Positions 12,126 to 19,182 of a DNA stretch of 64,000 nt are shown piece by piece (the stretch's first letter is position 1; the number at the start of each line of letters is the position of its first letter). A model generated the notes under the pieces. The model saw only the letters and a program-made list of their open reading frames with translations, was not told the origin of the DNA and ran no database searches. The DNA is from Moorella humiferrea (GTDB lineage Bacteria > Bacillota > DSM-521 > Neomoorellales > Neomoorellaceae). The translations under genes were made by a program, and so were the position numbers. The stretch lies in assembly GCF_039233145.1 (NCBI RefSeq), contig NZ_CP136419.1, positions 1,276,001 through 1,340,000 on the forward strand, written 5' to 3'.

Positions 12126-12184
12126 ATGCTTGCCGTAAGTCCGGCCAACCACCCCCTATCCATCGTAGGGGTCAAGGTTTCCCC

Positions 12185-12330
12185 GGCAACCGGTATCCTG
12201 ACTCGGGATCATAGCTACCGCACCGCCTTCCCAGGTGTCCCCAGTGGCCTGATGGTGTTTCGCTCCTCCTTACAGTGGCGGGACCGTGTCAGCTTTACAC
12301 TGACTTCCCGGATTTGCCGGAGGCAATATT
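12185..12330 (-). promoter_or_regulatory. Cobalamin riboswitch
   Basis: The minus strand holds the class core in order: CCGGGAAG, a GTCAG...CTGAC stem, GGTCCCGCCACTGTAAGGAGG, GGCCACTGG, CCTGGGAAGGCGG, and GATCCCGAGTCAGGATACC. These are the conserved adenosylcobalamin-aptamer boxes (Rfam cobalamin family, by memory). It precedes cobK-cbiMNQO and should turn the operon down when cobalamin is plentiful. Confidence 0.95.
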
Positions 12331-12397
12331 CAGTTTAGTTTATTTTAGCATAATCCAAAGGTTATGTCTACGGCTTTTTACCGCCCTTTGCGGTATG

Positions 12398-13723
12398 CTA
12401 TGCCAGTCCTGCCCTACGGGCGACGCGTTGGACGGCCTCGTTGGCCTTTTTTCTCACTTCGTCGGCAGCAATTGTTTTCAATTGCCTGTTCTCCATGACT
12501 ATTTTGCCGTCAACCATGGTCAGAGTGACATCCGTACCCCTGGCCTGGTAGACGAGCTGGGTGTAGACGTCGACGCCATCCTGGGGCTGGGTATGGAAAC
12601 CCTCAAGGGAAACCAGGGCCAGGTCGGCTTTTTTGCCTACTTCCAGGCTGCCGATTTCCTTTTCCATACCTAAAGCCCGGGCCCCGCCCAGAGTGGCCAT
12701 TTCAAAGACCAGTGGTGCCGGCATGGCAGTGGGCCCGTGAAGGGGTTTCTGGATTAAGGCCGCCAGCCGCATTTCCATAAAGGCGTCCAGGTTGTTGTTG
12801 CAGGGTGCGCCGTCGGCGGCCAGGGACACTACCGTTCCCCGGCTCAACAGATCCGGTACCGGGCAGATACCGGAAGCCATCTTTAAGTTAGAAGAAGGAC
12901 AGTGGACCACTTTCGTCCCGGTACGGGCCAGGATCTCCTTCTCTTCTTCACTGAGCCAGATACAGTGGACCAGGATGAGGTCGGGGCCGGTGAGGCCGAT
13001 ATCGTCCAGGTAAAGGACGTTGCGCCGGCTGTAAAGTTCTTCTACCAGGGCACACTCGCCCCTGTTTTCGGAAGCGTGGGTGTGGATTTTAACTCCGTAG
13101 CGGCGGGCGAGATCCCTGACTGTCAATAATAACTCTTCAGTGCAGGAGACTACAAAGCGGGGCGCAAAGGCGTACCGGATGCGGCCGTTATCGTAGCCGT
13201 GCCATTTCTCTAGCAGTTCGACGCTTTCTTTAAGGGAAGCCGCCGTTGTTTCTTTAAGGCTTTCCGGGACGTCCTCGCCAAAGTCCATCATTACCTTGCC
13301 GGTAAGGGCGCGAATCCCGCTTTTGGCGATAGCTTCAATGGCCGCGTCGGTATGATGGACGGTTTCCATATCGACGATTGTCGTGGTGCCGCTTAAGAAA
13401 AGTTCACCGATACCCAGCAGGGCGGAATAATAAAGGGAATCGGCGTCGTGGGCGCCTTCCAGGGGCCAGATCCGCAGGCGCAACCAGTCCAGAAGTTCCA
13501 TGTCGTCGGCGCGACCGCGGAAAAGGGACTGGCAGAGGTGGATATGGGGCTGGATGAGGCCGGGGATGACCAGGTGACCTGCGGCGTCGATAACCCGGTC
13601 GGCAGTGGCCGGAGTATTGCCCATGGCGGCGATGCGATCGCCTTCAATATAGATATCTCCCTGGAAAACTTCCCTCTGGGGATTCATTGTAACTAACGTA
13701 CCGTTCTTAATTAAGATACTCAT
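12398..13723 (-). CDS. Purine-type aminohydrolase (5'-deoxyadenosine/guanine deaminase-like amidohydrolase)
   Basis: A 441-aa member of the amidohydrolase superfamily, ATZ/TRZ branch. Metal ligands are seen in IQPHIHLCQSLFRGR (HxH), KIHTHASENRGE (His), VHCIWLSEEE (His) and LAADGAPCNNN (Asp). The HLCQSLFRG-ADD-LLDWL run is typical of proteins annotated as 5'-deoxyadenosine or S-adenosylhomocysteine deaminase. The ATG overlaps the preceding stop as ATGA, so it is translationally coupled to the molybdenum-hydroxylase genes. With a guanine-class riboswitch in front, deamination of a purine (for example guanine to xanthine) is a reasonable inference, not proven. Confidence 0.85.
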   Translation of the reverse strand: MSILIKNGTLVTMNPQREVFQGDIYIEGDRIAAMGNTPATADRVIDAAGHLVIPGLIQPHIHLCQSLFRGRADDMELLDWLRLRIWPLEGAHDADSLYYSALLGIGELFLSGTTTIVDMETVHHTDAAIEAIAKSGIRALTGKVMMDFGEDVPESLKETTAASLKESVELLEKWHGYDNGRIRYAFAPRFVVSCTEELLLTVRDLARRYGVKIHTHASENRGECALVEELYSRRNVLYLDDIGLTGPDLILVHCIWLSEEEKEILARTGTKVVHCPSSNLKMASGICPVPDLLSRGTVVSLAADGAPCNNNLDAFMEMRLAALIQKPLHGPTAMPAPLVFEMATLGGARALGMEKEIGSLEVGKKADLALVSLEGFHTQPQDGVDVYTQLVYQARGTDVTLTMVDGKIVMENRQLKTIAADEVRKKANEAVQRVARRAGLA

Positions 13724-14724
13724 TTCTTTCCTCCTTCTTTTTCCCGCAAGGCAGCCAGGATTCTTTCCGGGGTAACCGGCAGCTCCCTAATGCGCACCCC
13801 TACGGCATTGTATATGGCGTTGATGATGGCGGGCGCGGTGGGGATGGTGGCGGGCTCACCTACCCCTTTAGCGCCGTAGGGACCGGTAGGTTCATTGCTT
13901 TCTATAATCAAGGGCTGGATCTCGGGCATATCCAGGACGGTCGGAATGAGATAAGTGGAAAAAGAATTGTTGACGATGCGGCCCTGTTGCAGGTGCACCT
14001 TTTCCATAAGGGCCATGCCCAGTCCCTGGGCGATGCCGCCTTCAATCTGTCCTTCTACCCCGAGGCGATTTACGGCCCGGCCGACGTCATGGGCGGCTAT
14101 CAGCTTTAAAACCCGTACTTCCCCTGTTTCCGTATCCACTTCTACTTCCGCAATCTGCGTGGCAAAAGCGTAGGGCCAGTAGGGTGCCCCCTGGCCAGTT
14201 TCCGGGTCCACGGCCGTGGTGTGGGTGATGAAGGTTCCCTGGCCTACCAGGCGGCAACCGGCCAGGCGCGCCCGGGCGGCGGCCTCGGAATAGGATATCT
14301 GTTTCTGGGGATAACCTTTGACGTAAATTATACCTTCCCGGGCCGTCAGGCCGGCAACGGTATTGACCCCTAAGAGGAGGCGGGTATGTTCAAACAGGAC
14401 CTCCCTGGCCTGGCGGCAGGCCATTTTAACGGCGTTGCCCGAGGCATAGGTCTGACGGGTAGCAGCCGTCGTGCCGGCGTCGGGAGTGGTATCGGTATCG
14501 GCGGTAATCACCGTTACCCATTCATAGGGTATTCCCAGTTCCTCGGCGGCAATCTGGGCCAGAATGGTACTGGACCCCTGGCCGCAGTCCACCGCGCCGC
14601 TGCGCACCGTGGCCGTGCCGTCGTCATGAATCTCCACAGTGGCCGTGGAAACGTCGGGAAAACCGTTGCCGTATCCCGTTCCGTAAAAAATACAGGCCAT
14701 GCCGGTGCCGCGCTTTTTACTCAT
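13720..14724 (-). CDS. Molybdenum hydroxylase, medium molybdopterin subunit (NdhM-like; C-terminal half of XdhA)
   Basis: 334 aa, matching the second half of xanthine-dehydrogenase-type molybdopterin subunits. TVRSGAVDCGQGSSTILAQ binds the cofactor; GAKGVGEPATIPTAPAI holds the catalytic Glu. The start ATG 14724 overlaps the previous gene's end by 8 bases (ATGAGTAA) and has GGAGG beside it, so this is a real second gene, coupled to the first, rather than a random frameshift. The size pair 427/334 mirrors the two molybdopterin subunits of nicotinate dehydrogenase of Eubacterium barkeri, where the chain is naturally split. The substrate is more likely a purine here. Confidence 0.88.
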   Translation of the reverse strand: MSKKRGTGMACIFYGTGYGNGFPDVSTATVEIHDDGTATVRSGAVDCGQGSSTILAQIAAEELGIPYEWVTVITADTDTTPDAGTTAATRQTYASGNAVKMACRQAREVLFEHTRLLLGVNTVAGLTAREGIIYVKGYPQKQISYSEAAARARLAGCRLVGQGTFITHTTAVDPETGQGAPYWPYAFATQIAEVEVDTETGEVRVLKLIAAHDVGRAVNRLGVEGQIEGGIAQGLGMALMEKVHLQQGRIVNNSFSTYLIPTVLDMPEIQPLIIESNEPTGPYGAKGVGEPATIPTAPAIINAIYNAVGVRIRELPVTPERILAALREKEGGKK

Positions 14725-16000
14725 CCTCCATCCCTCCCGGTATTAATTCAGCCGGAGACCAACCGGCAGCCCTGGCTGCCTGAAGCATGGTTGCGGTTAA
14801 ACCGACGCTGCTTTCCAGGACCTGGCCCGTCGCGGTGACATCCCCCTGGCGGAAGGCATTGAGCCAGCGGAAGGTAAAGGGATGAATGCCCAGGCGTTCG
14901 GCCAATTCATCCATCTGGCTTTCATATGCCAGGGGCGGTTGGGTGGCGCCGAAGCCGCGCATGGCGCCGGTAAATGGATTGTTGGTATAAACGGCATAGG
15001 CATCAATCTTGACATTAGGTACAACATATGGGCCGGTGGCATGGATGGCAGCCTTGCGCAGGATTTTAGGGGCCCAGGAAGCGTAGGCGCCGCTGTCGCC
15101 GATTATTTCCGCTTCCAGGGCCGTCAGCTTCCCCTCCCTGGTGGCACCGGTCTTATAGCGCATGATCATGGGATGGCGTTTGCTGTGGGCCAGGAAAGAT
15201 TCCTCCCGGGTAAGGACCATCTTTGCCGGCCGCCTGGTATGAACGGCCAGCAGGGCTACCAGGGTTTGCAGGGTCATGTCTTCCCGGCCGCCGAAGGCAC
15301 CGCCGACTGCCGGAGCCACGATGCGGATGCGGTCCTGGTGCCAGCCCAGCACCCGGGCAACTTCCGTCCGATCCCAGTGGACGTACTGGGTGGCCACATA
15401 AATTACCAGGTGACCGCGCTCGTCCAGCCGGGCCACGGCGGCCTCAGGCTGGAGGAAAGCGTGGTCCAGGAGTTGGGTGCGGTAGGTATTTTCCACAACA
15501 ACGTCGGCGGCGGCAAAGCCGGCTTCCACGTCGCCTTTACGGATGGGCAGGTGGTAAATAATATTGTCCCGGTCGGGATGAACCCGGGGGGCTCCGGGTT
15601 TAAGGGCTTCCAAAGGATCTAAAATGGCCGGCAGCTCCTCGTAGGTTATTTTTACTTTAGCTGCCCCGGCCCGGGCGGCGGCCGGGGTGGTGGCCCCCAC
15701 CAGGGCGACGACGTCGTTCACCGAGCGCACTTCGTCCCGGGCCAGGACAGGCATGTCCTGGTAAACGACGCCCTGGCCGTTATGGCCGGGAATATCCCGG
15801 GCAGTCAGGACGCAGAGGACCCCCGGCACCTCCAGGGCGGCCGAGGTGTCAATGTTGATGATCCGGGCATGGGCGTAGGGGCTGCGGACGGCCTGGCCGT
15901 AGATCATCCCCGGGAAATTGATGTCGGCGGGGTAAAGGGCCCGGCCGGTGACCTTGGACCGGGCATCTACCCTGGGCGGGGATGTACCGATGAGAGACAT
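14717..16000 (-). CDS. Molybdenum hydroxylase, large molybdopterin subunit (NdhL-like; N-terminal half of XdhA)
   Basis: 427 aa, beginning with the Ald_Xan_dh N-terminal domain (VDARSKVTGRALYPADI) and then the first molybdopterin domain with TQYVHWDRTEVARVLG, VGGAFGGREDM and GAMRGFGATQPPLAYE. It ends at TATMLQAARAAGW, the normal junction between the two Mo-binding domains. AGGAG lies nine bases before ATG 16000. No [2Fe-2S] or FAD subunit gene is next to it, so partners must be encoded elsewhere. Transcription starts behind the guanine-class riboswitch. Confidence 0.9.
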   Translation of the reverse strand: MSLIGTSPPRVDARSKVTGRALYPADINFPGMIYGQAVRSPYAHARIINIDTSAALEVPGVLCVLTARDIPGHNGQGVVYQDMPVLARDEVRSVNDVVALVGATTPAAARAGAAKVKITYEELPAILDPLEALKPGAPRVHPDRDNIIYHLPIRKGDVEAGFAAADVVVENTYRTQLLDHAFLQPEAAVARLDERGHLVIYVATQYVHWDRTEVARVLGWHQDRIRIVAPAVGGAFGGREDMTLQTLVALLAVHTRRPAKMVLTREESFLAHSKRHPMIMRYKTGATREGKLTALEAEIIGDSGAYASWAPKILRKAAIHATGPYVVPNVKIDAYAVYTNNPFTGAMRGFGATQPPLAYESQMDELAERLGIHPFTFRWLNAFRQGDVTATGQVLESSVGLTATMLQAARAAGWSPAELIPGGMEDE

Positions 16001-16033
16001 GGAAAACCACTCCTCGCACCGTTATAAAAATTT

Positions 16034-16094
16034 AGGCAACCGCGCTTTCGGCAACGAAGAATCGCCTTCGTAGCCGGGCAATTTGCGGTTGCCT
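16034..16094 (-). terminator. Riboswitch terminator hairpin overlapping the aptamer
   Basis: On the minus strand AGGCAACCGC (16094-16085) pairs with GCGGTTGCCT (16043-16034). Inside it, CGGCTACGAAG (16076-16066) pairs with CTTCGTTGCCG (16059-16049) with one mismatch. The hairpin is followed by AAATTTTTAT. Its 5' strands are the P3 5' strand and the P1 3' strand of the aptamer, so terminator and aptamer exclude each other. Confidence 0.7.
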
Positions 16095-16134
16095 GGTAGA
16101 GACCCTCAGTCCGTATTGCTGAGGATATACGAAG
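16066..16134 (-). promoter_or_regulatory. Purine riboswitch aptamer, guanine class
   Basis: Minus-strand CTTCGTA...TACGAAG forms P1. P2 is TCCTCAG...CTGAGG, J2/3 is GTCTCTACC (consensus GNNUCUACC), P3 is GGCAA/TTGCC with a 7-base loop, and J3/1 is GGCTACG. The C in GGCTA at the specificity position marks the guanine/hypoxanthine class rather than adenine. Total length is 69 bases as for xpt. It is followed by the mutually exclusive terminator. Confidence 0.9.
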
Positions 16135-16140
16135 TTAATA

Positions 16141-16146
16141 ATTATA
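16141..16146 (-). promoter_or_regulatory. Predicted -10 box of the Mo-hydroxylase operon
   Basis: TATAAT on the minus strand lies 7 bases before the aptamer 5' end. A clear -35 is not seen (ATTTTA/TTTTAG at the right distance is weak). Confidence 0.45.
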
Positions 16147-17606: not shown

Positions 17607-19182
17607 CACTAGCGTTGCATAAAAATTTTTAGCACAGTGCAAGGCAATATATGGAAGGCAGAATATGTTATATAATAACATTAATGGTGTATACAACCAT
17701 GCATTTTCTTCCTTCACTGGCCAAAGGACTTAGGTTATCAGGGGTAGTCCTTATCCACATATTGCCATATAAAGTTGCTTAAAGAACTAAGGGGTCATAA
17801 GTTACGTCGTTTAAATAATCAGCTTCGCCAGCTAAAACTTGCTTTACTAAATCCTGATAGATGCCTTCATAGTCTATCTTGTGCCGCCCATAAGACCTTC
17901 GTTTGGGTTTACGGTGCAGGCTTTGGACGAAGAAGGTAAAGGGCTCATATAGACAGGTGCGGATTAAACGTTTAATAGTGAGCAATGGTCCTTGATAGCC
18001 GGCCTTTAATTGCAGCATAACCATCAGGCAGTAGGTTATTAGCGCTATGAAGAGCTGGTTTTCTACAGCCTGTTCGCTTTTACCATAAAAATGTTTCACC
18101 TGCAGGTGTTGTTTCATCCATTTGAAGAAGAGTTCTATCTGCCAGCGCTTACGATAAATCTCGCTTAATTCTTCCGCCGGTAACTCGAAATCATTGGTGA
18201 CTATAATTACCGGTTGCCCTTGGGTATCTTCGGTTGTTATCAGCCGTAAAGGGTGCTTCATTTTGGTAACTCCATCTTTGCCAAGGTAAACAAGCTGTTC
18301 CTTTTTAACCTTGCTGTCAGGGTTTACCGGCAACTCGGCGATTATTTCTACCAGAGCATTACCCTTTAAGCGGCTGGCAAAGCGGACGCCTTCTTCACAG
18401 TATCTGTCAAACTTCTTGTAATCGACATAGCCGCGGTCAAAGACGTTTAAGGCTTCTTCTTCCTCTACTACGAGGGTATCCATCTGGGTTTTATCTGCCT
18501 TCCGGGCCGGGGTGACAATTGCTTTATCAGGTAGAACCTCTTCTTCACAGAACTTTAAGCGCAGGTGGAGTTTTATCCCGCTTTTAGTCCTACGAAACTC
18601 GGCCCAGAGGTACTGGGTAAAACAGAGACTAATGATAGTGGAATCGATGAGGTAAATACGTCCTGCGGTATTTCTTAAGTTTTCAAAGCCGATTTCCCGG
18701 CCTATCCGGGTGGTGAGATGGCTGAATAATAGCCGGATGAATTGCGGCGATAAATCCCTTAAACGGCGCGCTATCTGGGAGAAACTGATACTCTCTAAAT
18801 TGATAGCCAGGCTAAATTGCGGGTCATTGAAGCTATTGCTGATATCCCGCAAGCCATTAAGTTGTTCCAGCTGAGCGAAGGCTATTAGTTTAATGAGTTG
18901 AAGGGAATTTAGCTTCTTAGCGTACTTATCGACCCCCATACCGGCGGTTAACTGCCAAAAATAGTCGTTAGAAACTGGAGCAAACAGTTGATGAAATGTG
19001 GATAATGTGGTATCCTTACCTTGCATTTGGGCCTCCTTATGTTAGAGGTTGGGGCAAGGACTACCCTCAATCTCTAGTATAAGGAGTTTTTTCTTGCAAG
19101 GCTAGGTTATTTCAGGAATTTGGCTGTTTTTTGGGCGTTATTTCCCTTGACAAGTTTATTTTTTCTTTATGCAACGCTAGTG
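17607..19182 (-). mobile_element. Intact insertion sequence, IS4-type DDE family, 1576 bp
   Basis: The ends are perfect 17-bp inverted repeats CACTAGCGTTGCATAAA (17607-17623 and complement 19166-19182), with 9-bp target duplications outside. It holds one transposase gene on the minus strand and about 150 bases of non-coding sequence on each side. Intact ends, an open transposase and perfect duplicates suggest a recent insertion. Confidence 0.93.
17779..19026 (-). CDS. IS4-family DDE transposase
   Basis: 415 aa. The RNase-H-like catalytic triad is visible: Asp in RIYLIDSTIISL, Asp in NVFDRGYVD, and Glu in the YRKRWQIELFFKWMKQHL block, the Y-R-E-K signature of IS4 transposases. The N-terminal DUF4372-like segment (FHQLFAPVSNDYFWQL) is common in this subgroup. 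AAGGAGG precedes ATG 19026. The frame is complete, so the element could be active. Confidence 0.95.
   Translation of the reverse strand: MQGKDTTLSTFHQLFAPVSNDYFWQLTAGMGVDKYAKKLNSLQLIKLIAFAQLEQLNGLRDISNSFNDPQFSLAINLESISFSQIARRLRDLSPQFIRLLFSHLTTRIGREIGFENLRNTAGRIYLIDSTIISLCFTQYLWAEFRRTKSGIKLHLRLKFCEEEVLPDKAIVTPARKADKTQMDTLVVEEEEALNVFDRGYVDYKKFDRYCEEGVRFASRLKGNALVEIIAELPVNPDSKVKKEQLVYLGKDGVTKMKHPLRLITTEDTQGQPVIIVTNDFELPAEELSEIYRKRWQIELFFKWMKQHLQVKHFYGKSEQAVENQLFIALITYCLMVMLQLKAGYQGPLLTIKRLIRTCLYEPFTFFVQSLHRKPKRRSYGRHKIDYEGIYQDLVKQVLAGEADYLNDVTYDPLVL

Follow-up and report, generated by a model that had tools for sequence, protein, structure and literature searches.

The guanine-I class of purine riboswitches (Rfam RF00167), exemplified by B. 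subtilis xpt, is built on a three-stem junction with the J2/3 motif UNUCUAC, the bases U22, U47, U51 and C74, and GG/CC contacts between L2 and L3. These features are shared by a leader in the window, a stretch of 64,000 nucleotides from Moorella humiferrea, of a genus of heat-loving acetogens (contig NZ_CP136419.1, positions 1,276,001 to 1,340,000). It differs from xpt in that its terminator is made of the P3 5' and P1 3' strands of the aptamer and is not freed by aptamer formation, and in that the genes behind it are catabolic. The adenine pbuE ON riboswitch resembles the window leader in its expression platform, with a terminator that invades aptamer strands unless the ligand prevents it. 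However, pbuE carries U74 where the window has C74, and it serves an efflux pump rather than breakdown enzymes.

A first-pass annotation of this locus took the ON architecture to be best known for adenine (pbuE), a premise that is out of date. Guanine-II, predicted to be ON, and xanthine-II, whose architectures are described as consistent with ON, have been published from Paenibacillus and other bacteria (PMC9295807). Like the window leader, they combine a guanine-riboswitch scaffold with an ON architecture, and xanthine-II precedes xanthine dehydrogenase and allantoinase genes (PMC9295807). Both carry insertions in J2/3 and J3/1, with U51G in addition in xanthine-II, whereas the window junctions are without insertions. 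An 8-oxoguanine riboswitch has also been mentioned as a guanine-I variant (PMC9295807).

Two further systems are relevant. The guanine-PRPP tandem, present in the same genomes as the window leader before purE and other synthesis genes, differs from it in having two aptamers and in its IMPLY logic, under which guanine acts as OFF (PMC5912903). The reductive urate/xanthine pathway, in which YgfK and SsnA act after Mo-hydroxylases, was proven with E. coli and C. difficile enzymes in a paper that leaves riboswitches unmentioned (PMC12507026). In the open literature, no guanine-I-type ON switch was found before xdh or other purine-breakdown genes.

We read the window leader, with a probability of roughly 85%, as a transcription-terminating guanine-class riboswitch whose expression platform is ON and which belongs to an ON-wired regulon for purine breakdown and uptake. 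The new part would be the use of a guanine-I-like pocket as an ON switch for anaerobic purine catabolism, ON guanine-class variants as such having been published already. If this is true, ON platforms that let a ligand induce catabolism are joined to the common guanine-I pocket as well as to its rare Paenibacillus variants.

Aptamer, terminator and exclusive folds

The Rfam purine-model search proposed with the first-pass annotation gives an RF00167 match at 16152-16051 on the minus strand, the strand of the riboswitch, covering the model end to end (1-102) with 79.1 bits against a gathering score of 37 (E 1.7e-12). The aptamer core occupies 16134-16066 (Table 1). The anatomy first described (P1, P2, J2/3, P3, and J3/1 with its C) is correct in all parts, and the interval 16034-16134 is exact, its ends being the opening base of P1 (16134) and the final base of the terminator 3' arm (16034). 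All sequence features of guanine-I are present, namely U22, U47, U51 and C74 without junction insertions, which supports the guanine-class pocket that had been claimed. The window aptamer lacks the U74 of adenine riboswitches, the one-nucleotide J2/3 insertion that marks guanine-II, and the xanthine-II marks of U51G and insertions in J2/3 and J3/1; its J2/3 is 8 nt long with U51, and its J3/1 is 2 nt. Just upstream, a TATAAT hexamer is kept in 3 of the 13 orthologs, and no promoter is called at this hexamer (16141..16146, minus strand) by a promoter/terminator scanner.

Table 1. Features of the leader and operon in the window (positions counted from the first letter of the window)
Feature	Position	Strand	Basis
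TATAAT, candidate -10 element just 5' of the aptamer; good -35 absent	16141..16146	-	sequence; unproven promoter
P1 5' strand CUUCGUA	16128..16134	-	RF00167 alignment
P2 stem-loop CCUCAGC / loop AAUACGG / ACUGAGG	16104..16124	-	RF00167 alignment
J2/3 GUCUCUAC (C), 8 nt, with U47 and U51 (guanine-contact positions)	16096..16103	-	RF00167 alignment; pocket table
P3 stem-loop CAGGCAA / loop CCGCAAA / UUGCCCG; strands 16095-16089 with 16081-16075	16075..16095	-	RF00167 alignment
J3/1 GC, 2 nt; C74 at 16073, the guanine-specifying position	16073..16074	-	RF00167 alignment; pocket table
P1 3' strand UACGAAG; doubles as 5' arm of the terminator inner helix	16066..16072	-	RF00167 alignment; fold
Terminator 5' arm AGGCAACCGC, overlapping P3 5' strand and L3	16085..16094	-	fold; ortholog alignment
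CUUCGU, pairing with P1 3' strand (ACGAAG) in the terminator inner helix; first displacing strand	16054..16059	-	fold
Terminator 3' arm GCGGUUGCCU	16034..16043	-	fold; 104/104 cells paired in 13 orthologs
Terminator U-run UUUUU, three A's after the stem	16026..16030	-	sequence
AGGAG, probable ribosome-binding site of the first gene	16010..16014	-	sequence
Mo-hydroxylase Mo subunit, N-terminal half, 427 aa, NdhL-like, XDH-type Glu in FGGRE	14717..16000	-	
Mo-hydroxylase Mo subunit, C-terminal half, 334 aa, NdhM-like, own ribosome-binding site (GGAGG before ATG)	13720..14724	-	
Amidohydrolase, 441 aa, probable purine deaminase with guanine-deaminase PRF motif	12398..13723	-	

The terminator is drawn from the P3 5' strand and the P1 3' strand, as had been noticed from the sequence. 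Its stem AGGCAACCGC/GCGGUUGCCU is a perfect 10 bp (16094-16085 with 16043-16034) followed by AAAUUUUUAU, and the inner helix ACGAAG/CUUCGU lies within it. A simple terminator scanner restricted to loops of 3-8 nt makes no call on this hairpin because of its long branched loop. The leader has a minimum free energy of -45.9 kcal/mol, compared with -27 +/- 3.1 for shuffles (z -6.1, 0 of 200 shuffles), and the corresponding structure is the terminator form, not the aptamer form, which reaches -32.4 kcal/mol when P1 is enforced. In a series of folds with ever longer transcripts the aptamer appears first; P1 disappears once the transcript includes CUUCGU and the UGCCG that follows, and P3 when the last arm emerges.

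The hairpin takes its 5' arm from the P3 5' strand, and its inner helix uses up the P1 3' strand. Aptamer and hairpin are therefore mutually exclusive, and ligand binding should turn the operon ON. The gap of ~13 kcal/mol between the two forms means that the ligand could win only kinetically. In the proposed mechanism, the aptamer would fold first in the nascent RNA. Without ligand, the downstream CUUCGU would take the P1 3' strand and GCGGUUGCCU would then take the P3 5' strand, giving a long hairpin with a U-run at which transcription would end before the operon. Bound guanine (or hypoxanthine or xanthine) would hold P1 and P3 and block the hairpin, so that the split Mo-hydroxylase and the purine deaminase would be made. 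The sequence element itself, an aptamer with an overlapping hairpin, is confirmed.

Conservation and covariation of the leader

Ten Moorella genomes and members of sister genera (G014, which is Thermanaeromonas, G016 and G017) have an orthologous leader in front of the same split hydroxylase, and 13 such leaders from three genera were aligned. The eight terminator stem pairs are paired in 104 of 104 cells, while sliding the partner by one to three columns lowers pairing to 19-51%. Covariance of the terminator in relatives, a second check suggested with the first-pass annotation, is seen at two compensatory pairs, changed on both sides from C-G to U-A and from A-U to G-C; among the 13 orthologs this covariation represents one evolutionary event, Moorella versus the sister genera, and the shuffles ignore relatedness. 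A third state of the covarying positions (UA/UA; GGUAACC with GGUUACC) occurs in other families (L137, L138). The terminator stem and U-rich tail are kept in 12/12 aligned orthologs. The spacer between them, 3 nt of A in the window, is shorter or absent in most.

In the aptamer fold, the two covarying bases of the P3 5' strand have their partners in the P3 3' strand, and these partners change too. A single strand covarying with two alternative partners is expected if both helices are selected, and the P3 5' strand with its two partners provides a clean natural case of selection for two mutually exclusive helices. The exclusive helices, their joint conservation and the covariation with both partners all support the ON wiring proposed at first sight. 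The ON mechanism of the window leader is well supported by anatomy and comparison; the ligand, termination in the cell, the direction of control and the enzyme substrates are what we infer from it.

Operon genes and the Moorellaceae regulon

Three intact, overlapping ORFs lie 3' of the leader on the same strand. The first-pass annotation named a molybdenum hydroxylase and a purine-type deaminase, and each name holds in part. The former is a Mo-hydroxylase, but the operon encodes the Mo subunit only, split into two polypeptides; its FeS and FAD partner genes are absent from the window operon. A second set of these partners in the type B operon (see below) may serve the split enzyme. The best solved-structure match of both halves is NdhL/NdhM of Eubacterium barkeri nicotinate dehydrogenase (3hrd; 381 and 310 bits), in which the Mo subunit is split at the same place. 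A frameshift or sequencing error as the cause of the split was ruled out, since the split recurs in 12/12 orthologous loci with both halves read and a ribosome-binding site lies at the junction. At the motif that reads FGGKL in NdhL, the window protein has FGGRE, with the xanthine-dehydrogenase Glu; the sister genera have FGARE. We take this Glu to correspond to E802 of bovine xanthine dehydrogenase. The Mo subunit at 13720-16000 combines a nicotinate-dehydrogenase-like break with a xanthine-dehydrogenase Glu and purine riboswitch control.

The amidohydrolase has the PRF motif of guanine deaminases, but the model it exceeds, its best in NCBIfam, is that of 5'-deoxyadenosine deaminase (723 bits, cut-off 522), and it stays below the cut-off of the guanine-deaminase model (243 of 375.4 bits). 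Its central segment matches E. coli guanine deaminase best (the fragment best against 6ohb), and PRF is found in 13/13 relatives, compared with PCS in 8-oxoguanine deaminases and PHA in thioadenosine deaminases. Judged by these matches, it is probably a guanine or related purine deaminase. In the 8-oxoguanine riboswitch, an altered binding pocket goes with an ON architecture, and the gene behind it encodes a purine deaminase, 8-oxoguanine deaminase. This gene link is not seen for the window leader, whose amidohydrolase reaches 307 of 532 bits for that deaminase family, far under the cut-off.

Other elements were seen around the operon. Directly 3' of it, a cobalamin riboswitch (12171-12346, minus strand, 92.6 bits) precedes cbiJ, cbiM, cbiQ and cbiO. 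On the other side, an IS4-type transposase gene (17779-19026, minus strand) lies between DNA polymerase IV and M48 peptidase genes. In three related genomes (G005, G009, G010) an NCS2 permease with a type E ON leader sits near the M48 peptidase; it was not seen in the window.

The window genome (2.67 Mb in one contig) and ten genomes of the same genus contain two to five purine aptamers each, which fall into five leader types in Moorellaceae. Type A is that of the window, before the split hydroxylase. Three more are ON-wired: type B before a complete xanthine dehydrogenase (XdhA 1300 bits, XdhB 438, both above cut-off) with SsnA, type D before a BMP-type nucleoside ABC transporter followed by YgfK, and type E before an NCS2 (xanthine/uracil) permease. 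Type C, a guanine-PRPP tandem, stands in front of synthesis genes, purE among them. The 5' arm of the terminator is the J2/3-P3 5' strand in types A, B and D and mostly the P3 3'/J3/1/P1 3' strand in type E.

With ON-wired A, B, D and E leaders beside a type C tandem under IMPLY logic (PMC5912903), guanine appears to act within the same genomes as an ON signal for breakdown and uptake but an OFF signal for synthesis. The regulon in Moorella and its relatives would comprise the window operon, xdh-ssnA, the nucleoside ABC transporter-ygfK operon and the NCS2 permease. We lean towards a broader reading in which anaerobic purine breakdown in these bacteria (uptake, deamination, hydroxylation and ring reduction) is under a number of ON switches whose pocket is ordinary guanine-I, and synthesis is shut off through the tandems by the same base; the opposite signs would coexist in one genome, possibly without a dedicated protein regulator. 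This would explain in concrete terms how the reductive urate/xanthine pathway of YgfK and SsnA, solved only recently, could be regulated.

The type D leader of the window genome is a decayed aptamer with its terminator still visible. Its P1 and P3 pairing is lost and a transposase gene lies between the leader and the transporter/ygfK operon (leader and transposase region: L183:16426-17766 and L183:18060-18200; ~2094.9-2096.7 kb). Erosion of parts of the regulon in this strain is therefore possible. Behind ygfK stand genes for serine dehydratase and glycine cleavage (L183:1981-8186), with a tandem glycine riboswitch at L183:6347-6557; they plausibly form a glycine branch of purine fermentation. 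A type E aptamer of M. thermoacetica DSM 21394 (L058, G006:C5:82960-83061) has a degraded J2/3 (UUUUUAAC) with an intact terminator and is probably a dead switch.

Ligand, alternative readings and distribution across the phylum

Every type A leader has U at positions 22, 47 and 51 and C at 74, as do nearly all other ON leaders; the exceptions at contact positions are L060 (J2/3 GAUUCUAC) and the degraded L058. At three positions the window aptamer is unlike the xpt consensus, with U for A at 24, C for U at 48 and G for A at 73. These departures could indicate that the ON mechanism is as proposed but the aptamer is a specificity variant for xanthine, urate or 8-oxoguanine, in keeping with published ON-like xanthine variants before similar genes (PMC9295807). 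However, orthologous leaders differ from one another at all three positions, and the guanine-PRPP tandems of the same genomes have G73 throughout, while U22, U51 and C74 are invariant in type A leaders and everything that defines xanthine-II is absent. Such a variant is unlikely. Guanine-I-like binding is expected of the window aptamer given the conserved contact positions and the behaviour of the three deviant ones. As guanine-I riboswitches separate guanine from hypoxanthine or xanthine by a factor of only about ten (PMC9295807), any of the three may be the working inducer.

It is very improbable that the leader is a conventional guanine OFF switch with an incidental hairpin, controlled by an antiterminator or at translation. 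Most guanine-I switches are indeed OFF (PMC9295807, PMC5912903), but here the sole U-run hairpin of the leader is formed by strands of the aptamer itself, the stretch from this hairpin to the start codon contains no second terminator, and the competition between P3 and terminator is exactly maintained by conservation. Loss of function in this genome, leaving an inherited aptamer and hairpin as a relic, would agree with the decay of the type D leader and the transposase gene before its operon, and with the weakening of the window terminator by its A-spacer. Against this, the type A helices and terminator pairs are intact, the aptamer scoring 79.1 bits, and so are the operon ORFs, which leaves a relic improbable, if less so than an OFF switch. 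An ON-wired guanine-class terminator switch is the reading we prefer.

The association of this wiring with breakdown genes was also scored across the phylum. A search of 398 genomes yielded 178 aptamers with downstream DNA, which were scored as ON, blind to genes, by the complementarity of aptamer strands to the bases before a U-run against shuffles. An earlier automatic ON/OFF classifier had been too lenient, as it enclosed the aptamer's own P3, and this P3-strand test was used instead. With author-chosen thresholds, which leave uncalled roughly half of the type B and D leaders that are visibly ON, ON calls were made for 23/31 aptamers before Mo-hydroxylase, XDH FeS, XDH FAD or purine-deaminase genes and for 14/147 before other first genes, ten of the 14 being Moorellaceae transporters. 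Outside Moorellaceae, the counts were 5/8 before purine-breakdown enzyme genes and 4/117 elsewhere (Fisher p 3e-5). Among the 178 aptamers there were no ON calls before purE (0/28), purD-like genes (0/11) or guaA (0/7). Terminators built on the P3 strand are found mainly before purine-breakdown genes and before few or no synthesis genes.

SsnA, the marker of the reductive urate/xanthine pathway, is above cut-off in 10/11 genomes with ON leaders (only marginally so in G242) and in 1/14 others, and YgfK in 12/12 versus 0/9, mostly from one genus. Genome-wide pattern matches returned real ON leaders only in Moorella and Thermanaeromonas; of the remaining matches, L218 is a guanine-PRPP tandem and the rest are without a purine aptamer. 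In one further case (L089, G024:C8:162005-162106, plus strand), a purine aptamer is followed by an apparent ykkC/PRPP-like second aptamer and stands before a xanthine dehydrogenase operon, not synthesis genes.
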